This document shows, piece by piece, positions 26,095 to 60,864 of a stretch of 64,000 nucleotides of DNA. A model generated the notes under the pieces. That model was not told the DNA's origin and searched no databases. It was given only the letters and a program-made list of their open reading frames with translations. The stretch is from contig NZ_JABBFW010000018.1 in NCBI RefSeq assembly GCF_012927045.1, forward strand, positions 1 through 64,000, written 5' to 3'. Within the stretch, counting starts at the first letter, position 1; every line of letters begins with the position of its first letter. This stretch comes from Azohydromonas caseinilytica. Lineage in GTDB: Bacteria; Pseudomonadota; Gammaproteobacteria; Burkholderiales; Burkholderiaceae_C. The position numbers and the translations under genes are program-made.

Positions 26095-27105
26095 TCACCG
26101 TGATCGGCCGTGCCGCCCTGCCGGCCGTCGAAACGGCCCCAGATGGCGGGCCACCAGCAGCGCCAGCGCGGCCAAGGCCAGCCACGGACGCAGCGACACC
26201 CGCTCCCGCTGCCGCCGCGCGTGGGCCGGGTCCTGCAGCAGCGACAGCAGTTGCGAGGCAGACTGCAGCCGCGCATAGCGCAACCCGGCCTCCTGGGACA
26301 GCCGCCGCAGATAGGGCTCGCGCAGCGCCGACAGGTGCTCGCGCCCCGGGGTGGCGCCCAGGTCCGGCGGGGCCGGGCCGGCCTCCTCCACCATGCGCTC
26401 GCCCTCGACGCTGCCGCCGCGCCCGCGGCTGAACGGCTCCACCTGCAGCACCTCGCTCGCATTCCAGAAGCCCAGCGGCCGGCCTTGCGGGTCGCTGCGT
26501 GGAATGGGCGAGAGCTGCAGCCCACCGACGCCGAGCAGCCAGCCGGCCTCGCGCCCGGACTCGGTGTCCAGCGGCGGCCGGTAGCGTGGATTGAGCGGCG
26601 GCGCCTCATGCCCGTCGGTGACGAAGACCAGCGCCGGCTGCTCCGGCAGCGCCCGCGCCAGGCGCAGCGCGCTGTTGAGCCCCTTGGCCACCTCGCTGTT
26701 GCCGCTCCAGGCCATGCGCCCATCGATGCGCGCCAGCGCCTCGCGCAGCTCCCGCAGGTGCTCGCATACCTCCAGCGGCGTGAGCAGCAGCACGCTGCGG
26801 TGCTCGGTGAACAGGCCCAGGCCGATGCGCGAGCCGCAAGGCAGCCGCCCCAGCGCGTCGTGCAGCGCCGCGCGCGCCAACGCCAGGCGCGACACCGTGC
26901 GCCCATCGAGCGGCACGTCCGCCACGTCCATGCTCTGCGTGACGTCCAGCACCACCACGGCTTCCGGCCGGGCCAGCTCCAGCGGCACCGTCACATCGAG
27001 CACTGCCAGCGCCAGCAGCAGCACCGCCGCCGGCAGCGCGCGCCGGCCGGGGCCGGGCCACCAGCGCCGGGCCTTGTCGAACCATGAGACGGCATCACCG
27101 CTCAC
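26095..27105 (-). CDS. VWA-domain membrane protein, MxaL-like
   Basis: A 336-residue protein with an N-terminal membrane segment (ALPAAVLLLALAVLDVTVPL), a von Willebrand A domain with the metal site start VVVLDVTQSMD and LVFVTDGHE, and a C-terminal membrane segment (LALAALALLVARHLG). By position it is the last gene of a six-gene block in the order of methylotroph mxaR-S-A-C-K-L, so MxaL-like is the best label. MxaL acts in calcium loading of methanol dehydrogenase in methylotrophs. It overlaps the previous gene by 4 bp. Confidence 0.75.
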   Translation of the reverse strand: MSGDAVSWFDKARRWWPGPGRRALPAAVLLLALAVLDVTVPLELARPEAVVVLDVTQSMDVADVPLDGRTVSRLALARAALHDALGRLPCGSRIGLGLFTEHRSVLLLTPLEVCEHLRELREALARIDGRMAWSGNSEVAKGLNSALRLARALPEQPALVFVTDGHEAPPLNPRYRPPLDTESGREAGWLLGVGGLQLSPIPRSDPQGRPLGFWNASEVLQVEPFSRGRGGSVEGERMVEEAGPAPPDLGATPGREHLSALREPYLRRLSQEAGLRYARLQSASQLLSLLQDPAHARRQRERVSLRPWLALAALALLVARHLGPFRRPAGRHGRSR

Positions 27106-27692
27106 GGCAGCCCCTGCGCCACGCCGCGCATCGTGGTGGCGGCGCGCTCGGCGTTCTGCGGCGCCGCCGCCGGGGCGATGTCCGCCGGGTCGGCATCGGG
27201 CTGCAGCCGCTGCGCGCGCTCCAGGTTGTAGCGGGCGGCCCAGTGGCCCGGGTCCTGGCGCAGCAGCTCGCGCAAGTTCTCCTTGGCCAGCTCGACCAGG
27301 GCGATGGCCTGCCCCGGCTGCTGACCGGCGCGCAGCCGCTCGGCCTCGCGCAGCAAGGCGTTGGCGGCGTTGAAGCGCGCGGCGCGGCCCAATGCGCTGT
27401 CTTCCGACTGCAGCGCGCGCCAGCCGTCCAGCGCCGCCTCGCCCTGGCCGCGGGCCGCCTGCTCGCCGGCGATGGCGAAACGCAGCGCCGCCGGCAGTTC
27501 CTGCGGAACCCGGGCCGCCTCAGGGCCCAGCACCGCCAGGACGCGCCCTTCCCGGATCAGCCCGTTCCAGCGCGACGCGCGCCACAGCGTCGAGGCGTCC
27601 AGCACCAGCGCCAGCAGCAAGACCGCCAGCAGGCCCAGCAGCCCCCGCCGGCGCGCGCGGCGGCTCAGGCCCAACGTGCGCGCTGCAGGCAT
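27102..27692 (-). CDS. MxaK-like membrane-anchored protein
   Basis: About 196 residues with a basic N-terminus and one membrane segment (GLLGLLAVLLLALVLDAS), then a helical region resembling tetratricopeptide repeats (AARFNAANALLREAERLRAG and HWAARYNLERAQRL). Its place between two VWA genes matches mxaK. The start at ATG 27692 overlaps the upstream gene by 28 bp; ATG 27704 is an alternative. The sequence is weakly conserved, so the name rests mainly on position. Confidence 0.6.
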   Translation of the reverse strand: MPAARTLGLSRRARRRGLLGLLAVLLLALVLDASTLWRASRWNGLIREGRVLAVLGPEAARVPQELPAALRFAIAGEQAARGQGEAALDGWRALQSEDSALGRAARFNAANALLREAERLRAGQQPGQAIALVELAKENLRELLRQDPGHWAARYNLERAQRLQPDADPADIAPAAAPQNAERAATTMRGVAQGLP

Positions 27693-28678
27693 TGCGCCCC
27701 CCACAACAACAGGCCCGCCCCCAGCGCCAGCGCCAGGCAGAGACCGTCCAGCCGGCGCGGCGGCAGGGTTTCGTCGAAGCTGCTGGGCAGGTCGGCCTGC
27801 CGGGCCACGTCCGCCACCGCGCGCTGCAGCGCCGCCGGATCGCCCACCTCGTAGGCCCGGTACTGCGGCCCCAGCGTGCTGAAGAAGCGATGCAGGAACA
27901 CCTCCGGCACATTCGAGGCCGCCTCGGCATCGCCGCCCTCGGCCACCAGCCCCGGGCTGCCGGTGGAGCGCAGGTACAGCCAGTACAGCGACACCCGGTT
28001 GCGCCGCATGCGCTGCGTGATGCGCTCGCGCACGGCCGGCTCCAGGTGGTCGCCGCCGTCGGAGACCAGCAGCACGATGCGCGCCCCGCCAAAGCGGCGT
28101 TCGTCGAAATAGTCCAGCGCCGCCTGCACCGCCTGCCCGATGTCGGTCTCACCCAGCCCGCGCCCCACGCCGCCGGCGGCAATGGCGGCCTGCACGGCTG
28201 CGGTCCGGCCGGTGAAATCCAGCACCGGCATGGGCACCGAGCTGAAAGCCACCAGGCCGAAACGATCACCGGAACGCTGCGCCACGAATTCGGACAGCAC
28301 CTCGCGCGCCACGCGGCTCTTGGCGCGTCCGCGCCCGCCGCCCTCGGCGCTGAGGCCACCGCTGCCGCCGGCGGCCCGGCTGTTGAAACCCTGGTCCATG
28401 CTGGCGCTGCGGTCCAGCAGCAGCACGATCTCGGCGCCGCGCCCCACGCGCTGCACCACCCGCTCCGGCTGCCGCAAGCCGGCCAGCGCCAGCACCAGCG
28501 CCGCGATCGCCACCGAGCCCAGCACCCGCAGTCCCAGCGCAATGGCTTGCCCCACCGGATCGGGCGGCAGCAGCGCCAGCGCGCCGTGGATCACCGGCAG
28601 CCCGCCCGGCCGCCGCCAGGGCAGCAGCGCCAGCGGCAACAGCAGCAGCCACAGCGGCTGATCCAGCGACAGGCTCAC
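27665..28678 (-). CDS. VWA-domain membrane protein, MxaC-like
   Basis: Start GTG 28678 overlaps the upstream stop as GTGA; the frame is open further but that part lies inside the previous gene. The 337-residue product has an N-terminal membrane segment (LWLLLLPLALLPW), a second (VAIAALVLALAGL), a VWA domain with MIDAS start LLLDRSASMD and LLVSDGGDH, and a C-terminal membrane segment. This is BatA/MxaC architecture. A Gly/Arg-rich insertion (RAAGGSGGLSAEGGGRGR) lies near the start of the VWA domain. Confidence 0.75.
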   Translation of the reverse strand: MSLSLDQPLWLLLLPLALLPWRRPGGLPVIHGALALLPPDPVGQAIALGLRVLGSVAIAALVLALAGLRQPERVVQRVGRGAEIVLLLDRSASMDQGFNSRAAGGSGGLSAEGGGRGRAKSRVAREVLSEFVAQRSGDRFGLVAFSSVPMPVLDFTGRTAAVQAAIAAGGVGRGLGETDIGQAVQAALDYFDERRFGGARIVLLVSDGGDHLEPAVRERITQRMRRNRVSLYWLYLRSTGSPGLVAEGGDAEAASNVPEVFLHRFFSTLGPQYRAYEVGDPAALQRAVADVARQADLPSSFDETLPPRRLDGLCLALALGAGLLLWGAQCLQRARWA

Positions 28679-29595
28679 CGGACCTCCCGCTCCAGCGCGC
28701 GCGCCCGCCGGCACAGCCCCTTGAGCCAGCCCGGGTCGGGGATGTCCTCGCTCCCCGGCGCGAAGAAGCTGCGGCGCGACAGCGCGAAGAAGCGTTCCAG
28801 CTCCGGCCGCAGCGGCGCGAAGGCCGGCTTGCGGGCCAGGAATTCGTCCAGACCGGGCGCGAACAGCACTTCGCCGGCGCTGCGATTCAAGGCCTGGTGC
28901 AAGACCGCCAGCGCCTGCCGCCACTGCGCCGCGCTGGTCTCATCGGGCAGCCGGCGCAGCGTGCGCCAGGCCTGATCGAAAGGACGTTCCACCCGGCGCC
29001 CCGGCCAGCCCCAGGTTTCAAGCGCCAGCCCGCCCAGCAGCAGCACGGCGATCAGGCCTTCAGCGGCCAGCCGCGCCTTCAGAGGCTGGACCGGGATGAG
29101 CGGCGCCGGCAGGTCCGGTTGCAGGGCACCGAAGCCGCGGCGCTCGGGCGCCGGCTCCGGCACCAGCGGCGACACCATCACCGGCACACCATCCAGCCGC
29201 ACGCCCTGGGGCCGCTTGCCTTCGAAGCGCAGCAGCACCGGCGGCAGCTCCAGCAGCTGCGGCGCCGGCGGCGAGCCCAGCACCTGGTAGCGCAGCGTGA
29301 GCCGGAACGTGCCACCGGGACGCCACCACGGCGGCTTTTCCCAGCGCGCCTCGCGCAGCTCGATGGCGAAGCCGGGCTTGGGCACGGGCAGCGAGGCCTC
29401 ATCCAGCCGCCACCCGGCCGGGACGCTGACTTCGGCATGGCGCTCAATGAGGTCGCCGAGCTGGTAGCCGAAGGTGCGCGGCTCGATCTCGTGCAGCTGG
29501 ACTGTCTGCGCCAGCGCCGGCGCCGGCGCGGTGGCCAGCAGGCCGGCGGCTACCAGTTCAACCCTGAAGGAAGTGACGCGTGACGGCATCGGCAT
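28675..29595 (-). CDS. MxaA-like exported protein
   Basis: A 306-residue product with a signal peptide (VELVAAGLLATAPAPALAQ), an extracytoplasmic beta-rich region, one later membrane segment (LIAVLLLGGLAL) and a C-terminal cytoplasmic helical part. The order after a DUF58 gene and before a VWA gene equals that of MxaA. ATG 29595 (or 29589) overlaps the DUF58 gene. The sequence itself has no catalytic motif, so the label depends on context. Confidence 0.6.
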   Translation of the reverse strand: MPMPSRVTSFRVELVAAGLLATAPAPALAQTVQLHEIEPRTFGYQLGDLIERHAEVSVPAGWRLDEASLPVPKPGFAIELREARWEKPPWWRPGGTFRLTLRYQVLGSPPAPQLLELPPVLLRFEGKRPQGVRLDGVPVMVSPLVPEPAPERRGFGALQPDLPAPLIPVQPLKARLAAEGLIAVLLLGGLALETWGWPGRRVERPFDQAWRTLRRLPDETSAAQWRQALAVLHQALNRSAGEVLFAPGLDEFLARKPAFAPLRPELERFFALSRRSFFAPGSEDIPDPGWLKGLCRRARALEREVR

Positions 29596-30406
29596 CGAAG
29601 GCCCCCTCGATGAACAGCGGCCGCAGCCGCGCCTGGGCGAAGCAGCGCTGCAGCGCCTCGCGCCGCTCGCACCCGGCCTGCGCCCAGCGCTCGCGCAGCC
29701 CCGGCCGCCACCACAGCAGTCGCCGCGCGCCGCTTTCGGCATCCACCAGCGGCAGCAGCCCGGCCGGGCCGCGCGGCTCGAACTCGTAGCGGTCCCACAG
29801 CACCACCGGCACCACCCAGTGGCTCACGAAGGCGTCCAGCCAGCGCCTCACTTCCTCCAGCGGCACATGGAAGTCCGACACCAGGAACAGCAGCCCCCGC
29901 GAGGCACCGAGCACCGCCGCCGCCTGCGCCAGCGCCCGGCTGCCCTGGCGTTCGGGCCGCAGCGCGCGCAACTGGCTCCCCAGCGCCTCGGCCCGGCCGG
30001 CCTGGCGCGCAGGCGGCCACAGCAGCTCCTCGCGCAGGCGGTCGTCGCAGGCCACGCAGCCGAAGGGATCGCCCGTACGCCAGGCGGACCAGGCCAGGCT
30101 CCGCGCGAAGTCCGCCAGCACGTCCAGGCGCCGCGGCGCGCCGAAGGCCATGGAGGCGGAGACATCGGCGATCAGCCACACCGTCTGCGCCCGGGGCGGG
30201 CTGTGCAGCCGCACCTGCCAGCGCTGGAACGGGTCCCGCAGCGTGGCGCGCACATCCAGCCGCCGCGCGTCCGGCGCGCGCAGCCAGTCGGCATGGCCAC
30301 GGAACTCCAGCCCACCCTCGCCGCCCAAGCTGCGGTGCGCGCCCGCCCGCAGGCCCTGCGCCGGCCCGGGCAGGCGGTAATGGAATTCAGGCGGCGGCTG
30401 GATCAC
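29558..30406 (-). CDS. DUF58 protein, MxaS-like
   Basis: A 282-residue DUF58 protein with a degenerate VWA-like fold (VWLIADVSASMAFG, then LLFLVSDFH). DUF58 genes are regular partners of MoxR ATPases. Overlap with the upstream ATPase gene is ATGA. It corresponds to mxaS in the mxaRSACKL order. No membrane segment is evident, unlike many DUF58 proteins that have two N-terminal ones. Confidence 0.75.
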   Translation of the reverse strand: MIQPPPEFHYRLPGPAQGLRAGAHRSLGGEGGLEFRGHADWLRAPDARRLDVRATLRDPFQRWQVRLHSPPRAQTVWLIADVSASMAFGAPRRLDVLADFARSLAWSAWRTGDPFGCVACDDRLREELLWPPARQAGRAEALGSQLRALRPERQGSRALAQAAAVLGASRGLLFLVSDFHVPLEEVRRWLDAFVSHWVVPVVLWDRYEFEPRGPAGLLPLVDAESGARRLLWWRPGLRERWAQAGCERREALQRCFAQARLRPLFIEGAFDADAVTRHFLQG

Positions 30407-31431
30407 GGCGCCGGCACCGCTTGCAGGATGGCGCGGGTGAGTTCCGGCACCAGGGTCGCGCGGCGCAGCTCGTACACCGGCTGCAGCACCAGCCGGTGCG
30501 CCATCACTTCATGGAACACCGCGCGCAGGTCCTCGGGCACCAGGTGATCGCGCCCGTCCAGCCAAGCCGCCACGCGCGCGGCGCGCAGCAGCATGCTCAT
30601 GCCGCGCGGACTGGCGCCGGCCATCAGCAGCGCCGACGGGTCCACGGCCTCCTGCGCCAGCCGCACCCCGTGCCGGCCTGGTTGCTCACTCGCCCGCCAC
30701 AACGCCAAGGCGTAGCGGCGCAATGTCGGAGAAGCCTGTATGTGGCCTTGGATGGCGGCAGCCAGAGCGCCCAGCTCGCGGTGCCGCACCAGGCCCGAGG
30801 GCAGCGTTTCGACCAGTGCGTCGGTGTCGTGGAAGCGCGGGTCGAACACCAGCGCCTCGCGCTCGAGCTCGTCGGCAGGCGTGTCGATGGTGATTTCCAT
30901 CAAAAACCTGTCCCGCGCCGCCACGGCCAGTTCAAAGGTTTCCTCGCGCTCGACGCGGTTGCGGTCCGCGAAGACCAGCAAGTGGGGCAGCTGAAACTCG
31001 CGATTGAAGGCCGAGACGCTGCGCTCGGCCATGGCGCGCAGCAGCAGCGAGTGCACCTGCGGGCGGGCGCGGTTGATCTCGTTGAAGAAGAAGATCGCCA
31101 GTTCGCCGCCCTGCGCGATGAGCGGGCCCGGGTCCACGGCCGGACGCCCGTCGGCGCCGATATGGGTGTGGTAGACCAGATCGGCGGGCATCAGGTCGAT
31201 GGTGCCTTCCACCCGCGCGAAGGCGCCGCCCACCGCGCGCGCGAAGGCGCGCAGCAGCGTGGTCTTGCCCACGCCCACGTCGCCCTGCAGCAGCACGTGG
31301 CCGCGCGCGAAGACGGCGATGTTCACCAGGCGGATGGCGCGCGCCTGGCCCACCACCACGCGGGCCACTTCGCGCTCCAGCGCCAGCGCCTGCTCACGCT
31401 GCGCCGCCAGCCAGCCCAGGTCCAGCGCCAT
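30403..31431 (-). CDS. MoxR-family AAA+ ATPase, MxaR-like
   Basis: A MoxR ATPase of 342 residues from ATG 31431, with Walker A GDVGVGKTTLL, Walker B AIFFFNEINRARPQ, the sensor region and the C-terminal lid (SPRGMSMLLRAARVAAWLDG). MoxR ATPases act as chaperones with VWA and DUF58 partners; the mxaR member is needed to mature methanol dehydrogenase. First gene of the minus-strand block, divergent from bauA. The 212-bp gap (31432-31643) must hold both promoters. Confidence 0.85.
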   Translation of the reverse strand: MALDLGWLAAQREQALALEREVARVVVGQARAIRLVNIAVFARGHVLLQGDVGVGKTTLLRAFARAVGGAFARVEGTIDLMPADLVYHTHIGADGRPAVDPGPLIAQGGELAIFFFNEINRARPQVHSLLLRAMAERSVSAFNREFQLPHLLVFADRNRVEREETFELAVAARDRFLMEITIDTPADELEREALVFDPRFHDTDALVETLPSGLVRHRELGALAAAIQGHIQASPTLRRYALALWRASEQPGRHGVRLAQEAVDPSALLMAGASPRGMSMLLRAARVAAWLDGRDHLVPEDLRAVFHEVMAHRLVLQPVYELRRATLVPELTRAILQAVPAP

Positions 31432-31643: not shown

Positions 31644-32972
31644 ATGACCACTGACCGCACCACCGACACTTCTTCCCTCGACGCCCACTGGATGCCCTTC
31701 ACTGCCAACCGGCAGTTCAAGCAGGCGCCGCGCATGCTGGCCCGCGCTGAAGGCATGCATTACTGGACGCCCGAAGGACGGCAGGTGCTCGATGGGGTGG
31801 CCGGGTTGTGGTGCGTCAACGCCGGGCATGCGCGACCACGGATCGTGCAGGCCATCGCCCAGCAGGCGGCCACGCTGGACTACGCGCCGCCGTTCCAGAT
31901 GGGCCATCCGCAGGCCTTCGAGCTGGCCGAGGAACTGGTCAAGCTCACGCCGCCCGGGCTGGACCGCGTGTTCTTCACCAACTCCGGCTCCGAGTCGGTG
32001 GAGACGGCGCTGAAGATGGCACTGGCCTACCACCGCGTGCGCGGCGAGGGCAGCCGCACCCGGCTCATCGGCCGCGAGCGCGGCTACCACGGCGTGAACT
32101 TCGGCGGCATCTCGGTGGGCGGCATCGTTGGCAACCGCAAGCTGTTCGGCACGCTGCTCGCCGGCGTGGACCACCTGCGCCACACCCACGACCCGGCGCG
32201 CAACGCCTTCAGCTTCGGCCAGCCCGCGCATGGCGCCGAGCTGGCCGACGACCTGGAGCGGCTGTGCGCGCTGCACGACCCCAGCACCATCGCCGCAGTG
32301 ATCGTCGAGCCCGTGGCCGGCTCCACCGGCGTGCTGCTGCCGCCGGTGGGCTACCTGCAGCGGCTGCGTGAGATCTGCGACCGCCACGGCATCCTGCTCA
32401 TCTTCGACGAGGTCATCACCGGCTTCGGCCGCACTGGCCAGCCTTTCGCGGCGCAGACCTTCGGCGTCACGCCCGATCTGATGACGGTGGCCAAGGGCCT
32501 GAGCAATGGCTGCGTGCCCATGGGCGCCGTGCTGGCCAAGCGCGAGATCCACGACGCCTTCATGCACGGCCCGGAACAGCTCATCGAGTTCCCGCACGGC
32601 TACACCTACTCGGCGCACCCGCTGGCGTGCGCGGCGGCGCTGGCCACGCTGCAGACCTACGAGGAGGAAAACCTGCTCACCCGCGCCAGCGAACTGCACG
32701 ACTACTTCGGCCAGGCGCTGCACTCGCTCCGGGACCTGCCGCTGGTGGTGGACGTGCGCCACATCGGCCTGGTCGGCGGCATCGAGCTCACGCCCATCCC
32801 CGACGCGCCGGCCAAGCGCGCCTTCAACGTGTTCCTGGACTGCTGGGAGCAAGGCGTGCTGATCCGCACCACCGGCGACACCATCGCGCTGTCGCCACCC
32901 CTGATCATCGAGAAGAGCCACATCGACCGCATCGTGGACACGCTGGCCGGCGCCCTGCGCCGCGCGGCATGA
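31644..32972 (+). CDS. bauA: Omega-amino acid:pyruvate aminotransferase
   Basis: A class III PLP transaminase of 442 residues. The N-terminal HWMPFTANRQFK and ERGYHGVNFGGISVGG are characteristic of beta-alanine:pyruvate transaminases (BauA/OapT). Asp255 (FDEVITGFGRTG) and the Schiff-base Lys284 (TVAKGLSNG) are visible. It would move the amino group of beta-alanine, GABA-like acids or diamines to pyruvate. First gene of a six-gene plus-strand cluster; its stop overlaps puuD (ATGA). Confidence 0.9.
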   Translation: MTTDRTTDTSSLDAHWMPFTANRQFKQAPRMLARAEGMHYWTPEGRQVLDGVAGLWCVNAGHARPRIVQAIAQQAATLDYAPPFQMGHPQAFELAEELVKLTPPGLDRVFFTNSGSESVETALKMALAYHRVRGEGSRTRLIGRERGYHGVNFGGISVGGIVGNRKLFGTLLAGVDHLRHTHDPARNAFSFGQPAHGAELADDLERLCALHDPSTIAAVIVEPVAGSTGVLLPPVGYLQRLREICDRHGILLIFDEVITGFGRTGQPFAAQTFGVTPDLMTVAKGLSNGCVPMGAVLAKREIHDAFMHGPEQLIEFPHGYTYSAHPLACAAALATLQTYEEENLLTRASELHDYFGQALHSLRDLPLVVDVRHIGLVGGIELTPIPDAPAKRAFNVFLDCWEQGVLIRTTGDTIALSPPLIIEKSHIDRIVDTLAGALRRAA

Positions 32973-33748
32973 GCTGCGCCGGCGACAGAAGCTCCTCCCC
33001 GCCGGTCGTGCTCGTGCCGGCGTGCAACCGGGTGCTGGGCCAGCACCCCTTCCATGTCGCCGGCGCCAAGTACGTGGCCGCCGTGCGGCTGGCTGGGGCG
33101 CTGCCGCTGGTGGTGCCCGACGCGGCGCCGGAGGAGCTCGACGCCCTGCTCGACCTGGCCGACGGCGTGCTGCTCACGGGCTCGCCGTCCAACGTGCATC
33201 CCCGCCATTTCGGCGAGCCGGTGCACGACACCACGCTGCCGCTGGACCCCCGGCGCGACGCCTGGACCCTGCCCTTCATCCTCAAGCTGATCGAGCGTCG
33301 CCTGCCGCTGCTGGCCATCTGCCGCGGCGCGCAGGAGCTCAACGTGGCGCTGGGCGGCAGCCTGCACCAGGCGGTGCACTCGCTCCCGGGCTACGCCGAC
33401 CACCGCGGCCAGGGCGAGACGGCCGAGGCGCAGTACGCGCTGGCGCATGAGGTGCACGTGGAGCCCGGCGGGCTGCTGCAGGCGGTGGTGCAGGAGGAGG
33501 CCTTCCGCGTCAACTCGGTGCACGGCCAGGCGGTGAACCGCCTCGCTTCCGGGCTGCGCGTGGAGGCGCGCGCGCCGGACGGCCTGGTCGAGGCCTTCTC
33601 GGTGCATGGCATGGATTTCGCGCTGGCGGTGCAGTGGCACCCGGAGTGGCAGGCCCCGAACAACCCGATCTCGATGCGGCTGCTGCAGGCCTTCGGCCAC
33701 GCATGCCGGCAACAAGCGGCCCGACGCCGCGACCAGCAGGAGGGATGA
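32969..33748 (+). CDS. puuD: Gamma-glutamyl-GABA hydrolase, PuuD-like
   Basis: A class I glutamine amidotransferase-like hydrolase of 259 residues with nucleophile Cys118 (LLAICRGAQELNVALGG), the His/Glu pair in VQWHPEW, and LLTGSPSNVHP. PuuD releases GABA from gamma-glutamyl-GABA in the glutamylated putrescine route. It overlaps bauA by 4 bp, and puuA follows at once. Start ATG 32969 is chosen over the upstream open frame that lies inside bauA. Confidence 0.88.
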   Translation: MSCAGDRSSSPPVVLVPACNRVLGQHPFHVAGAKYVAAVRLAGALPLVVPDAAPEELDALLDLADGVLLTGSPSNVHPRHFGEPVHDTTLPLDPRRDAWTLPFILKLIERRLPLLAICRGAQELNVALGGSLHQAVHSLPGYADHRGQGETAEAQYALAHEVHVEPGGLLQAVVQEEAFRVNSVHGQAVNRLASGLRVEARAPDGLVEAFSVHGMDFALAVQWHPEWQAPNNPISMRLLQAFGHACRQQAARRRDQQEG

Positions 33749-33751
33749 GTG

Positions 33752-35119
33752 ATGTCAGGACGCGACAACTTCACCTACAGCGACCTGGAGCAGTGGCTGG
33801 ACCAGCAGCGCGTCACGGAGATCGAGTGCCTGGTGCCCGATCTCACCGGCGTGGCGCGCGGCAAGATCCTGCCGCGCCAGAAGTTCACCGAGGATCGCGG
33901 CATGCGGCTGCCGGAGGTCGTGGTGGCCATGGGCGTGACGGGCGAGTTCCCTGAAGAGGGGCCCTATTACGACGTCATCACGCCCACCGACCGCGACATG
34001 CACCTGCGCCCCGACCCGGCCACGGTGCGCATCGTGCCCTGGGCCACGGACCCGACGGCGCAGGTCATCCACGACTGCTTTGACCGCGACGGCCGCCTCG
34101 TGCCCTTCGCGCCGCGCTCGGTGCTGCGCCGGGTGTGCGAGCTGTTCAAGGCCGAGGGCCTGGAGCCGGTGGTGGCGCCGGAACTGGAGTTCTACCTGGT
34201 GGCGCGCAACACCGACCCGGACATGCCACTGAAGCCGCCGATCGGGCGCAGCGGCCGGGCCGAGACCTCGCGGCAGGCCTACTCCATCGACGCGGTCAAC
34301 GAGTTCGACCCGCTGTTCGAGGACGTCTACGACTACTGCGAAAAAATGGAGCTGAACGTGGACACGCTGATCCACGAGATCGGCGCGGGCCAGATGGAGA
34401 TCAACTTCTTCCACGGCTACCCGCTGGCGCTGGCCGACGAGGTGTTCTTCTTCAAGCGCACGGTGCGCGAGGCGGCGATGCGGCACGACATGTTCGCCAC
34501 CTTCATGGCCAAGCCCATCGCCGGCGAGCCCGGCAGCGCCATGCACGTGCACCAGAGCATCCTGCGCCAGGACACGCGGCAGAACCTGTTCAGCAACCCC
34601 GACGGCAGCCCCAGCCGCGAGTTCTACTGGTACATCGGCGGGCTGCAGAAGTACGTGCCGGCGGCCATGGCGCTGTTCGCGCCCTACGTCAACAGCTACC
34701 GGCGCCTGGCGCGCTTCACGGCCGCGCCCATCAACATCCAGTGGGGCACCGACAACCGCACCGTGGGCATCCGCTCGCCGGTGGCGCCGCCGGCGGCGCG
34801 GCGCGTGGAAAACCGCGTCATCGGCGCCGATGCCAACCCGTATGTGGCGCTGGCGGCCACGCTGGCCTGCGGCTACCTGGGCATCAAGAACCGCATCGAG
34901 CCCACGCCCGAGTGCAAGGGCGACGCCTACCTAGGCGACTACGCGCTGCCGCGCAGCCTGGGCGAGGCGCTGGAGAAGCTGCGCGCCGAAGAGGCGCTGG
35001 CCGAGGTGCTGGGCAGTGACTTCATCACCGTCTACGCCGAGGTCAAGGAAACCGAATTCGCCGAGTTCATGAAGGTGATCTCGCCCTGGGAGCGCGAGCA
35101 CCTGCTGCTGCACGTCTAA
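33752..35119 (+). CDS. puuA: Gamma-glutamylpolyamine synthetase, PuuA-like
   Basis: A glutamine-synthetase-fold ligase of 455 residues. IECLVPDLTGVARGK, PELEFYLV, HEIGAGQMEINF, GSAMHVHQSI and NRTVGIRSP mark the GS core. This subgroup joins glutamate to putrescine or another amine. ATG 33752 sits 8 bases after AGGAGG; GTG 33749 is 5 bases after it and less likely. Context with puuD, puuC and an aminotransferase supports polyamine use. Confidence 0.88.
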   Translation: MSGRDNFTYSDLEQWLDQQRVTEIECLVPDLTGVARGKILPRQKFTEDRGMRLPEVVVAMGVTGEFPEEGPYYDVITPTDRDMHLRPDPATVRIVPWATDPTAQVIHDCFDRDGRLVPFAPRSVLRRVCELFKAEGLEPVVAPELEFYLVARNTDPDMPLKPPIGRSGRAETSRQAYSIDAVNEFDPLFEDVYDYCEKMELNVDTLIHEIGAGQMEINFFHGYPLALADEVFFFKRTVREAAMRHDMFATFMAKPIAGEPGSAMHVHQSILRQDTRQNLFSNPDGSPSREFYWYIGGLQKYVPAAMALFAPYVNSYRRLARFTAAPINIQWGTDNRTVGIRSPVAPPAARRVENRVIGADANPYVALAATLACGYLGIKNRIEPTPECKGDAYLGDYALPRSLGEALEKLRAEEALAEVLGSDFITVYAEVKETEFAEFMKVISPWEREHLLLHV

Positions 35120-35138
35120 GAAACGAGGAGGAACGCCC

Positions 35139-36536
35139 ATGACCGAATCGCTCTACCGCGGACGCACCACCCGGGATTGGCAGGCCGCCGACGCCGCCCA
35201 CTTCCTGCACCCCTTCACCGACTTCAAGGCGCTGGCCGCGCGCGGCGCGCGCATCGTCACGCGCGGCGAAGGCATTTATCTCTGGGACAGTGAGGGCCAG
35301 CGCATCTTCGACGCCATGTCGGGCCTGTGGTGCGTGAACGTGGGCTACCGGCAACAGCCGCTGATCGACGCGGCCACGCGCCAGATGCAGGAGCTGCCCT
35401 TCTACAACGCCTTCTTCCAGACCAGCACGCCGCCGGCCATCGAGCTGGCCGAGCTGCTGGCCGAGCTGGCGCCGCCGCAGTTCCAGCATGTCTTCTTCGC
35501 CGGCTCGGGCTCGGAGAGCAACGACACCATCGTGCGCATGGTGCGCCGCTACTGGGCGCTGATGGGCCAGCCGCAGCGCCAGGTGATCATCAGCCGCTGG
35601 AACGGCTACCACGGCTCGACCATGGCCGGCGCCTCGCTGGGCGGCATGCCGGGCATGCACGAACAGGGCGGGCTGCCCATTCCCGGCATCGTCCACATCC
35701 ACCAGCCGCACTGGTGGGAGCATGGCCGGCGCCTGGGGCTGTCGCGCGAGCAGTTCGGCTTGCAGGCCGCGCAGTGGCTGGAGGACAAGATCCTGGAAGT
35801 CGGCCCGGAGAACGTGGCCGCCTTCATCGGCGAGCCGGTGCAGGGCGCGGGCGGCGTGATCGTGCCGCCCGAGAGCTACTGGCCGGAGATCCAGCGCATC
35901 TGCGACCGCTACGGCATCCTGCTGGTCAGCGACGAGGTCATCACCGGCTTCGGCCGCACCGGCCAGTGGTTCGGCTGCGAGCGCTTCGGCACCCGGCCCG
36001 ACCTCATCACCTTCGCCAAGGGCGTGACCAGCGGCTACGTGCCGCTGGGCGGCGTGATGGTGGGGCAGCGCGTGGCACAGGTGCTGATCGAGAAAGGCGG
36101 CGAGTTCACCCACGGCTACACCTACTCCGGCCACCCCGTGGCCTGCGCCGTGGGCGTGGCCAACCTCAGGCTGATCCGGGAGCTGAAGCTGGTCGAGCGC
36201 GTGCGCGACGAGACCGGCCCCTACATGGCCGAGCTGTACCGGCAGTTGCAGGAGCACCCGCTGGTGGGCGAGGTGCAGAGCTGTGGGCTGATGGGCGCGC
36301 TGACGCTGGTGCGCGACAAGGGCACCAATGAGCCCTTCGCGCCGGAGATCGACATCGCCATGGTCTGCCGCGGCCATTGCTTTGGCAACGGCCTGATCAT
36401 GCGTGCCGTGGGCGACCGCATGATCGTCGCGCCGCCGCTGGTGGTGACGCGGGCGCAGCTCGACGAGATGGCGGCGCTGATCCAGCGCTGCCTGGACCTG
36501 ACCCTGGCCGACGCCACGCGCAACGGCTGGCTCTGA
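35139..36536 (+). CDS. Putrescine-type class III aminotransferase, SpuC-like
   Basis: A 465-residue PLP transaminase. HPFTDFKALAARGARIVTRG, MSGLWCVNVGY, SRWNGYHGSTMAGASLGGM, Asp265 in SDEVITGFGRTG and Lys294 in FAKGVTSG match the SpuC/polyamine:pyruvate group. It starts after GAGGAGGA. Together with bauA, the cluster has two pyruvate-linked transaminases and no PuuB-type oxidase. An exact amine substrate cannot be read from sequence. Confidence 0.85.
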   Translation: MTESLYRGRTTRDWQAADAAHFLHPFTDFKALAARGARIVTRGEGIYLWDSEGQRIFDAMSGLWCVNVGYRQQPLIDAATRQMQELPFYNAFFQTSTPPAIELAELLAELAPPQFQHVFFAGSGSESNDTIVRMVRRYWALMGQPQRQVIISRWNGYHGSTMAGASLGGMPGMHEQGGLPIPGIVHIHQPHWWEHGRRLGLSREQFGLQAAQWLEDKILEVGPENVAAFIGEPVQGAGGVIVPPESYWPEIQRICDRYGILLVSDEVITGFGRTGQWFGCERFGTRPDLITFAKGVTSGYVPLGGVMVGQRVAQVLIEKGGEFTHGYTYSGHPVACAVGVANLRLIRELKLVERVRDETGPYMAELYRQLQEHPLVGEVQSCGLMGALTLVRDKGTNEPFAPEIDIAMVCRGHCFGNGLIMRAVGDRMIVAPPLVVTRAQLDEMAALIQRCLDLTLADATRNGWL

Positions 36537-36562
36537 AGGCCTGCATCGGGAAAGGAACGCGC

Positions 36563-38068
<1,506 letters not shown>

Positions 38069-38080
38069 CGGAGCACACCC

Positions 38081-39427
38081 ATGCGGGACCTGCGCGAGCG
38101 CTTGAAGAAGCAGGGCATCCACACCCTGCTGGTGCAGTTCACCGACCTGCACGGGGCCGCGCGCGGCCGCTTCGTGCCGCTGGCGCACCTGGACGACGTG
38201 CTCACCGACGGCGCCGGTTTTGCCGGCCCGGCCATCTGGGGCAGCGCCCTGCCGCGCACCGGCGAGCGCGCCCGCTACCACGCGCGCGGGCAGGCCAGCT
38301 CCATCGTTGCCCTGCCCTGGCTGCCCGGCGTGGCGCGCATCGTGGCCGACGGCTTCGTCGCCGGTGAGCCCTTCGACGCCGATCCGCGCCAGGTGCTGCG
38401 CCGCGCGCTGGCGCCGCTGGAGGAGCAGGGCTGGATGCTGCGCGTGGGACTGGAGCCGGAGTTCTTCCTGCTGCGCCGCGAGGGCGAGTCCTTCGTCCCG
38501 GCGGACGCGCGCGAACGGCTGGACAAACCCTGCTACGACCTGAAGACGCTGCCGCGCCAGGCCGGCTACCTGCACGAGCTGCGCGAGGCGCTGGAGCGCT
38601 GCGGGCTGGACGTGATGCAGCTGGAGCATGCCGAGGCGCCGGGGCAGTACGAGGTCAATTTCGGCCACACCGACGCTCTCGCCTGCGCCGACCAGCTGAT
38701 GCTGTTCAAGCAGGCGGCGCATGCCATCGCGCAGCAGCACGACATGCTGTTCTCGCTGATGCCAAAACCGTTTGCCGACCAGGCGGGCAGCGACATGCAC
38801 GTGCATGTCTCGCTGTGGGAAGGCGAAGGCGTGGATGCGCGCAGCCTGTTCACGCCGCACCTGCCCGATGGCGCGGTGGACCGCACCCGCACGCTGTCCA
38901 CACTGGGCCGGCATTTCGTGGCCGGCGTGCTGGCGCACAGCGCCGCGCTGTGCGCGCTGGCCGCGCCGACGGTGAACTCGTACAAGCGATTGCGCCCCAC
39001 GCTCAACGGCCCGGGCTACGCGCCCAAGTACGTCGCCCAGGGTCCGGACAACCGCACGGCGCTGGTGCGGACGCTGCATGGACGCTTCGAGTGGCGGCTG
39101 CCGGACGCCAGCGCCAACCCCTACCTGATGCTGGCCGGGATGGTGGCGGCGGGCCTCGACGGCATCGAGCGCCGGCTCGACCCGGGCCCGGACGTGGACA
39201 TCGACCTGCTGGAAGCCTCGCCTCAAACCCTGGCCGAACTGGGCCTGCGCACGCTGCCCCACAGCCTGGCGCAGGCGCTGGACGCGCTGGAGGGGGACGA
39301 GGTGCTGGTCAATGCGCTGTCGTCCTCACTGGTGCGCGAGTTCGTGCGGCTCAAGCGGCAGGAATGGGCCGAATATGCGCGGCATGTCAGCGCTTGGGAA
39401 TTGTTGAGGTATGTGGATGCGTTTTGA
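38081..39427 (+). CDS. Second glutamine-synthetase-like ligase
   Basis: A 448-residue GS-fold protein that starts HTLLVQFTDLHGAARGRFVP and contains EPEFFLLR, QYEVNFGHTDALACADQ, GSDMHVHVSLWEG and a C-terminal SWELLRYVDAF. It differs from puuA and looks like the GlnT/gamma-glutamylmethylamide-synthetase side of the family, so it may glutamylate another amine. Last gene of the cluster, 12 bp after puuC. Confidence 0.82.
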   Translation: MRDLRERLKKQGIHTLLVQFTDLHGAARGRFVPLAHLDDVLTDGAGFAGPAIWGSALPRTGERARYHARGQASSIVALPWLPGVARIVADGFVAGEPFDADPRQVLRRALAPLEEQGWMLRVGLEPEFFLLRREGESFVPADARERLDKPCYDLKTLPRQAGYLHELREALERCGLDVMQLEHAEAPGQYEVNFGHTDALACADQLMLFKQAAHAIAQQHDMLFSLMPKPFADQAGSDMHVHVSLWEGEGVDARSLFTPHLPDGAVDRTRTLSTLGRHFVAGVLAHSAALCALAAPTVNSYKRLRPTLNGPGYAPKYVAQGPDNRTALVRTLHGRFEWRLPDASANPYLMLAGMVAAGLDGIERRLDPGPDVDIDLLEASPQTLAELGLRTLPHSLAQALDALEGDEVLVNALSSSLVREFVRLKRQEWAEYARHVSAWELLRYVDAF

Positions 39428-59964: not shown

Positions 59965-60055
59965 GGAGGGATGGATGAGTGGTTTAAGTCGCACGCCTGG
60001 AAAGCGTGTGTGGGTTAATAGCCCACCGCGGGTTCGAATCCCGCTCCCTCCGCCA
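59965..60055 (+). tRNA. tRNA-Ser(GGA)
   Basis: A 91-nt class II tRNA. The acceptor GGAGGGA pairs with TCCCTCC, followed by G and an encoded CCA at 60053-60055. The anticodon GGA is at 59999-60001 in CTGGAAA. A long variable arm (GTGGGTTAATAGCCCAC) and T loop GGTTCGAATCC are present. Its 3' end is followed by an integrase remnant, so it probably served as an attachment site. Confidence 0.97.
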
Positions 60056-60218
60056 CCTTGGGCTCCCGAGGTGTTTCACGGCCTCCTGCAAGTCCCTGTC
60101 CCGCAGGAAAAAGGTCGAAGTCCCCACCCACGACGTGCCACCACGGCGCACCCAATCGCTCCAGATTTGATGGGTAGCATGACGGGTCGCAAGACCGTCA
60201 GGCATCCGGAGGTTCGGC

Positions 60219-60864
60219 ATGGGTCGGGTCGCAGTCGAACTCAGCGCGCTCGCGGTTTCCCGCCTCGTCGAGCCGGGCTCCACTTCGTCGGCGGCGTGGC
60301 CGGCCTGGCCTTGCAGGTCAAGCCCACGGGCGCGCGGCCGTGGACCCCATCGAGGAGAGCCTCGCTGCCCGATCGCGGCTGCAGGCCGAGCGTGCCACGG
60401 CCCTGACCTTCCGGGACTGCGCGGCCCGGTTCATCAGGTCGCATGCCCCGGGCTGGCGCAACGCCAAGCACGCCCAGCAATGGGCGAACTCCCTGGAGAC
60501 CTAGGCGCATCCGGTCATGGGCACGCTGCTGGTGCGCGACGTGCAGCTGCAGCATGTCCTGGCCGTGCTGGAGCCGATCTGGCAGGCCAAGACCGAGACG
60601 GCGAGCCGGGTGCGCGGCCACATCGAGCAGGTGCTGGACTGGGCCGCGGCGCACGGCTTCCGCTCCACCTTCCGCGACTGGGCTGCCGAGCGCACGCAGT
60701 TCCCGCGCGAGGTGGCCGAGATGGCGCTGGCGCATGCCATCGGCGACAAGGTGGAGGCGGCCTACCGGCGCGGCGACCTGTTCGAGAAGCGGCGCCGGCT
60801 CATGGACGACTGGGCCGCCTTCCTGGACCGGCCGGCCGCAGCCGGCAACCTGTCCGCCACCTGA
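60219..60864 (+). pseudogene. Collapsed tyrosine integrase next to tRNA-Ser
   Basis: The pieces are those of a P4-type tyrosine recombinase. They include an N-terminal SALAVSRLVEPG, LHFVGGVAGLALQVKPTG in another frame (a one-base loss near 60280), DPIEESLAARSRLQAERATA after a deletion near 60345, and TAG at 60502-60504. Then MGTLLVRDVQLQHVLAVLEP leads to HGFRSTFRDWAAERT and AYRRGDLFEKRR. The middle of the catalytic domain with the first Arg is missing; box II His-x-x-Arg and the final Tyr remain. It points away from the tRNA as in integrated islands. Confidence 0.8.

Follow-up and report, generated by a model that had tools for sequence, protein, structure and literature searches.

What does a set of maturation genes for a methanol dehydrogenase do where no methanol dehydrogenase gene is in view? 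This question is raised by a 64,000-nucleotide stretch of Azohydromonas caseinilytica DNA (here called the window), the first 64,000 nt of contig C10 of a 6.65-Mb genome, in which six genes at 26095-31431 follow the order of mxaRSACKL. In published descriptions, the mxa genes act in the insertion of calcium into the methanol dehydrogenase MxaFI and in the maturation of this enzyme (PMC6028718, PMC11845868). An initial annotation of the window had offered three possible clients for the block: an alcohol dehydrogenase encoded far away, an enzyme that uses a lanthanide, or some different client in the periplasm. The lanthanide enzyme emerged as the best supported of the three, because XoxF5 co-occurs with the block and is linked to it in relatives; the other two fared less well. 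We consider it probable, at roughly 0.7, that the block belongs to a lineage of mxaRSACKL that has been retained to mature XoxF5, the lanthanide-dependent methanol dehydrogenase.

The block and its kinship to mxa clusters

The block consists of six open reading frames, all on the minus strand, with neighbors overlapping by 4, 38, 4, 10, and 4 bp, the 38-bp overlap being contingent on the start codon picked for the third gene. From mxaR to mxaL, they are as follows.

30403..31431, minus strand: mxaR-type MoxR AAA+ ATPase, 342 amino acids; Walker A GDVGVGKT, Walker B FFFNEINRA (Asn for Asp), post-sensor VFADRNRVEREETFEL
29558..30406, minus strand: mxaS-type DUF58 protein, 282 amino acids; Pfam DUF58, DxSxS motif reading DVSAS
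28675..29595, minus strand: mxaA-type protein, 306 amino acids, start codon uncertain; predicted immunoglobulin-like (Ig-like) beta domain at residues 33-141, one transmembrane helix at 170-195, and helical domain at 205-305
27665..28678, minus strand: mxaC-type VWA protein, 337 amino acids; hydrophobic segments near the N and C ends, DxSxS motif reading DRSAS
27102..27674 (alternative GTG start at 27704), minus strand: mxaK-type protein, 190 amino acids; N-terminal transmembrane helix and TPR-like helices
26095..27105, minus strand: mxaL-type VWA protein, 336 amino acids; N-terminal hydrophobic segment, DxTxS motif reading DVTQS

The Pfam matches above cutoff were AAA_3 and AAA_lid_2 in the MoxR protein, DUF58 in the second protein, and VWA_2 in both the fourth and the sixth, with no family passing its cutoff in the MxaA-type and MxaK-type proteins. 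The frames and Pfam matches bear out the layout given in the initial annotation, namely overlapping minus-strand genes for MoxR, DUF58, signal-peptide, VWA, TPR-like, and VWA proteins. Clear hydrophobic segments are found in four of the six products. The third protein is predicted to be a signal-peptide/transmembrane protein, and its model (predicted local distance difference test score [pLDDT] of 88) drew Ig-like matches (best Foldseek E-value 4e-3; best VIA Z of 8.1, 2.5 Å over 99 residues), with no metallochaperone recognized among the matches listed; because these matches are generic, the fold does not show a function. There is moderate support for the fifth protein being TPR-like: 15 of 35 aligned homologues match TPR_16 at an E-value of ≤1, the window member itself matching nothing, and TPR proteins head the Foldseek list for its model (pLDDT 90; best E-value 0.02). 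NCBIfam held no model naming any of the six block proteins, nor one naming the MxaA homologues (39 members, E-value of ≤0.01).

The gene order R-S-A-C-K-L is that of the annotated mxa clusters of Paracoccus, Methylobacterium, and Methylocystis. When the window MoxR was compared with 72,556 plasmid records, 11 records matched at 56-65% identity and the next at 38% or less, among the best 40 of 275 matching records, and six of the top 11 were opened. Four of these, from Paracoccus methylovorus, Methylobacterium nodulans, Methylocystis iwaonis, and Azospirillum lipoferum (the last an unannotated record with gene calls from tblastn), have mxaFJGI directly upstream and S-A-C-K-L downstream, and the window MoxR is 57-65% identical to the MoxR of these four mxaF clusters; the other two, both from Caballeronia, hold a stand-alone block. 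For each of the five non-MoxR proteins, tblastn searches of the window showed homology to the corresponding Mxa protein, with identities of 32% to Paracoccus MxaS; 35%, 34%, and 43% to MxaA, MxaC, and MxaL of Methylobacterium nodulans; and 48% to Paracoccus MxaK, the latter over a short match of 46 residues only (E-value 1e-5).

The FFFNEINRA Walker B motif and the post-sensor VFADRNRVEREETFEL, or near-variants of them, are common to mxaF-linked and xoxF-linked MxaR proteins, the Asp-to-Asn change of Walker B (FFNEINRA) being seen in both classes. Two other MoxR proteins of the host scored above the Pfam cutoff; they are encoded elsewhere in the genome, are 34-35% identical, and keep ADEINRA and ATQNP at the MxaR-diagnostic sites. 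Between the xoxF-linked and mxaF-linked classes themselves, six positions were class specific at the thresholds used and are not interpretable.

A Bat operon likewise lines up genes for MoxR, DUF58, and two VWA proteins, and a block built on the same logic might encode a chaperone of that kind, acting generally in periplasmic or membrane stress, with no PQQ (pyrroloquinoline quinone) client. The first VWA protein indeed matches Leptospira BatA and BatB models at 23 and 22 bits; however, the cutoffs of these models are 380 and 350, and the models are Leptospira only. In addition, the MoxR class and VWA models differ from those of Bat operons, the A-C-K-L order is that of mxa, the host's two other MoxR genes lie elsewhere and differ in diagnostic residues, and occurrence of the block tracks XoxF5, as described below. 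We therefore regard a Bat-like role as highly improbable. The MxaR identities and the diagnostic motifs identify the block as mxaRSACKL rather than Bat type. Judged by its sequence, it is a true mxaRSACKL operon, and the match to the mxaRSACKL order claimed at the outset holds for gene order, MoxR identity, motifs, and five-protein homology alike.

XoxF5 in the host and in its relatives

The whole window was searched by tblastn (E-value of ≤1e-3) with MxaF, MxaJ, MxaG, MxaI, and MxaD; XoxF, XoxG, and XoxJ; other PQQ dehydrogenases; and PqqB, PqqC, and PqqE. Matches fell only in the block, in agreement with the earlier statement that genes for mxaF, xoxF, pqq, and cytochrome cL are absent from the 64 kb (neither PqqA nor PqqD served as a query). 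The rest of the genome, to which the initial annotation had pointed for xoxF, mxaF, exaA, and pqq genes, contains XoxF5, other PQQ dehydrogenases, and pqq genes; MxaF was not found among the first three candidates scored. The MoxR does not belong to a non-mxa group, and the genome does not lack PQQ enzymes. The host XoxF5, whose clade number we presume from the nearest structures, scores 931 bits to PDB 6dam and is followed by genes for a c-type cytochrome and a XoxJ-like protein, named by position and reading. PqqE exceeds its cutoff, and pqqB, pqqC, and pqqD lie beside pqqE by reading. A second XoxF-like enzyme is nearest to 4mae, and the genome also encodes a PedH-like enzyme (we take structures 6zcv and 6zcw to be PedH) and a type-II-like PQQ dehydrogenase. 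Asp-x-Asp, a mark of lanthanide use, is present in all four host PQQ dehydrogenases, XoxF5 and the three encoded on C1, C34, and C3, whereas two MxaF proteins read Asp-x-Ala at this site.

XoxF5 is favored as the client by its co-occurrence with the block and its linkage to it in relatives. We sampled 399 genomes of the family, scoring the first five candidates per genome for MxaR and the first three for XoxF5 and MxaF. MxaR-type MoxR was found in 35 genomes and XoxF5 in 42, with both in 34; the exception, G373, carries XoxF5 as two pieces on two contigs. With these pieces counted, XoxF5 is present in 35/35 MxaR genomes, i.e., within the family the block occurs only with XoxF5. All 18 block genera fall within the 22 XoxF5 genera of 141 (Fisher P of 2e-40 by genome and 3e-19 by genus, kinship beyond genus being uncorrected). 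With three candidates scored in each genome, MxaF was found in none of the 399, the host included. As a control, the MxaF query matched three plasmid records known for mxaF and neither Caballeronia plasmid. Of 398 genomes drawn from across the phylum, 13 carry MxaR; among the 11 outside the family, 10 had MxaF (nine at 72-80% identity and one at 64%), and the eleventh, from the same order, had only a XoxF-type enzyme at 49%.

Physical linkage of the block to xoxF5 was observed in 15 of the 35 family block genomes: the MxaR start lies ≤15 kb from the xoxF5 start in 14, and one further genome has a 5.2-kb contig with the block and a piece of xoxF5. At three loci, xoxF5 is a divergent neighbor approximately 0.5 kb from the block, and at two others, pqqB-C-E stands between xoxF5-G-J and the block. 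Of the 42 MxaR places in the family, one (G250:C110) was left out and one is that of the window itself; in the 40 stretches fetched around the rest, MxaF was found in none and the DUF58 gene follows MxaR in all, with later genes missing only at contig ends. We also inspected named genomes, taking the best 80 of at least 535 relatives with flanks of up to 10 kb. Among these 80, 31 had MxaF and one had MxaJGI at a contig edge, all being Alphaproteobacteria or Methylococcaceae by title; 14 had xoxF5 (13 Burkholderiales and 1 Rhodocyclaceae), one gammaproteobacterium had a 68% XoxF, and 33, some of them cut by contig ends, had neither MxaF nor xoxF5. The block and xoxF5 are close together in several Rhizobacter and Variovorax relatives.

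Several points weigh against XoxF5 as the client. Because few candidates were scored per genome, misses are possible. XoxF5 without the block was found in 8 of the 399 genomes, and a DUF58 search at an E-value of ≤1e-5 in these eight returned 0/8, with controls at 3/3. Linkage was unseen in the other 20 of the 35 block genomes, including the host and three other Azohydromonas, some assemblies being fragmented. Among published work, XoxF does not require mxaACKLD or mxaRSEH according to a 2024 review (PMC11845868), and in M. extorquens, M. silvestris, and M. trichosporium, mxa products are reported to fall as XoxF rises. For Roseobacter La 6, which is able to grow on methanol, XoxF5 is the sole predicted methanol dehydrogenase, the passages on it being silent on mxa accessory genes (PMC5934484), and Methylibium xoxF mutants are said in a review comment to retain methanol dehydrogenase activity, Mdh2 being responsible (PMC2474590). 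No experiment on this block lineage was found in the open-access literature.

The Methylibium report also bears on a different client, as the block may mature another PQQ alcohol dehydrogenase of the host, be it the PedH-like enzyme, the XoxF-like enzyme of C1, or one of Mdh2 type. Methylibium, which is reported to use Mdh2 for methanol, bears the block, and its mxa accessory genes were noted without mxaI (PMC2474590); the host has the three further Asp-x-Asp PQQ dehydrogenases; and a 60-62% identical block occurs in several genomes with no PQQ gene of the reference set nearby. However, in the co-occurrence comparison, which covered XoxF5, MxaF, and the PedH-like enzyme, the latter was found in 24 of the 35 block genomes and not in the other 11, whereas XoxF5 was found in all; the PedH-like enzyme was also present in 6/8 XoxF5-only genomes and 3/37 genomes with neither. 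Moreover, among the PQQ references, only XoxF-type matches adjoin non-mxaF blocks. We consider such a client unlikely.

Some related loci are described here in their own right. The stand-alone Caballeronia plasmid blocks (L029:13941-19144 and L034:11971-17048) have no PQQ gene of the reference set in view; one of them sits between heavy-metal efflux and arsenic genes, and blocks of the Caballeronia clade occur in several family genomes as well. The host xoxF5 cluster runs on (L022:12318-14083) with genes for a trypsin-like/TPR protein and for a second protein that has no Pfam match; in many relatives, one or both have homologues close to xoxF5. In addition, the host's own genome has an 880-amino-acid open frame (L024:8570-11209, corresponding to C13:28569-31208) in which an N-terminal part of approximately 310 residues with hydrophobic stretches is joined to a PQQ domain that resembles XoxF5 and shares 64% identity with the host XoxF5. 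Its active site reads NNNWGFSAATE as opposed to YDEWDFDGINE in XoxF5, so the catalytic Asp is gone; the product is perhaps a pseudo-enzyme or a sensor.

Descent and retention of the block

A block with the gene order of the calcium enzyme's cluster might also be the leftover of a lost ancestral MxaFI methanol dehydrogenase, with no client now, which is the published reading of Sphaerotilus mxa fragments as MxaFI remnants (PMC13300288). The MxaR tree and the conservation of the genes bear on this. In a carefully built tree with 63 MoxR rows, 21 mxaF-linked rows were split from 42 others, the window included, by one branch with support of 98/94, which was also recovered in 98% of 200 bootstrap trees. 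The 63 rows are a hand-chosen subset of those in a quick tree, with the outgroup and the row L031 left out; the tree is unrooted and thus gives no order of origin, and the mxaF labels of three rows (L105, L110, and L117) rest on MxaF located approximately 2-4 kb away. In the quick tree of 127 rows, the corresponding non-mxaF group of 79 rows had a Shimodaira-Hasegawa-like approximate likelihood ratio test (SH-aLRT) value of 92, and L031, a long mxaF row, met the outgroup. Genome G750 has three copies: one lies near MxaF and is placed with the mxaF-linked rows, and its two companions are placed across the branch from them. The split and the placement of these copies argue that the non-mxaF block is not a recent leftover of the mxaF clusters sampled.

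By MoxR, the nearest named relatives are Azohydromonas australica, Azohydromonas lata, and Azohydromonas aeria, at 83-87% identity. In the host and three other Azohydromonas, isocitrate lyase and class-III aminotransferase genes flank the block, and all six frames are open in those three. The ratio of nonsynonymous to synonymous substitution rates (dN/dS), obtained by a simple method on GC-rich DNA, was 0.20-0.57 for the block compared to 0.08-0.10 for aceA. The block is therefore under constraint, which is weaker than that on aceA and strongest for mxaR. Its faster evolution relative to aceA would fit a relic; by contrast, six open frames in four Azohydromonas at one kept site, dN/dS below 1, intact motifs, an MxaR lineage apart from the 21 mxaF-linked rows even within G750, and XoxF5 kept in 35/35 block genomes, with linkage in 15, all speak against one. 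We find a relic very unlikely.

A possible mechanism and comparison with known systems

The client proposed here, XoxF5, is a soluble periplasmic enzyme. In the mechanism we envisage, MxaR and MxaS would act from the cytosol; the MxaR ATPase, together with DUF58/VWA partners, would spend ATP to pull on membrane-anchored VWA, MxaA, and TPR-like proteins; the pulled membrane proteins (MxaA, MxaC, MxaK, and MxaL) could then remodel or open periplasmic apo-XoxF5, into which the metal, and perhaps PQQ, might be inserted. By analogy, we infer that these proteins act directly on XoxF5 and that their activity is to insert metal; their placement in the membrane is likewise inferred. The analogy is with NorQ/NorD, a MoxR/VWA pair involved in metal insertion into nitric oxide reductase (PMC13036017). 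The two systems would be alike in having a MoxR AAA+ protein with a VWA partner and in inserting metal into an apo-enzyme, as is proposed here for the block, but NorQ/NorD comprises two proteins with a non-haem iron client, whereas the block has six genes with four products bearing hydrophobic segments (PMC13036017, PMC9976466). A narrower proposal, which we regard as possible rather than probable, is that the block is a dedicated AAA+ machine for loading lanthanide, or lanthanide and PQQ, from an old, mainly betaproteobacterial mxaRSACKL lineage acting on XoxF.

Compared to the mxaRSACKL genes of MxaFI clusters in Methylobacterium, Paracoccus, and Methylocystis, the block has six orthologous genes in the same order, with MxaR at 57-65% identity and shared motifs, but it lacks mxaFJGI upstream, has no mxaD match in the window, belongs to a separate MxaR lineage, and keeps the company of XoxF5. 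Closer parallels are found in Methylophilaceae, whose core genome is reported to include MxaRSACKL with XoxF, two MxaF-less strains (JLW8 and 301) having two copies (PMC4109929). Like the block, the extra copies there stand alone in genomes where XoxF is the methanol dehydrogenase; unlike it, they occur in methylotrophs, in two to four copies whose location is not strictly conserved (PMC4109929). In our MxaR tree, the stand-alone Methylophilaceae copies lie with the block on the non-mxaF side, and in the Burkholderiales studied here the block is often near xoxF5. In strain 13 of that family, one extra cluster lies near a foreign xoxFJG (PMC4109929). XoxF alongside mxaRSACKL has thus already been reported for Methylophilaceae, and in the accessible text of the open-access literature we found no paper describing an xoxF-linked mxaRSACKL lineage in Burkholderiales, nor one on methanol oxidation by Azohydromonas among the matches listed.

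To our knowledge, the route of lanthanides into XoxF is an open question. If a separate XoxF-serving mxaRSACKL lineage exists in Burkholderiales and Methylophilaceae, it would offer a genetic handle on lanthanide insertion, and stand-alone mxa blocks would then be XoxF machinery rather than relics or evidence for a calcium enzyme. Should the lanthanide-loading proposal be correct, the current view that XoxF can do without such machinery would apply only to other lineages, e.g., Alphaproteobacteria.

Two further features of the window were noted. In a divergent gene run at 31644-39427, Pfam recognizes two glutamine-synthetase-like proteins and a class-III aminotransferase; by reading, the run also encodes another aminotransferase, an aldehyde dehydrogenase, and a class-I amidotransferase, and it resembles what we take to be a polyamine-use cluster. 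At 59965-60864, a tRNA-Ser (gga) gene is followed by a short open reading frame with a phage integrase central domain, likely an integration site.

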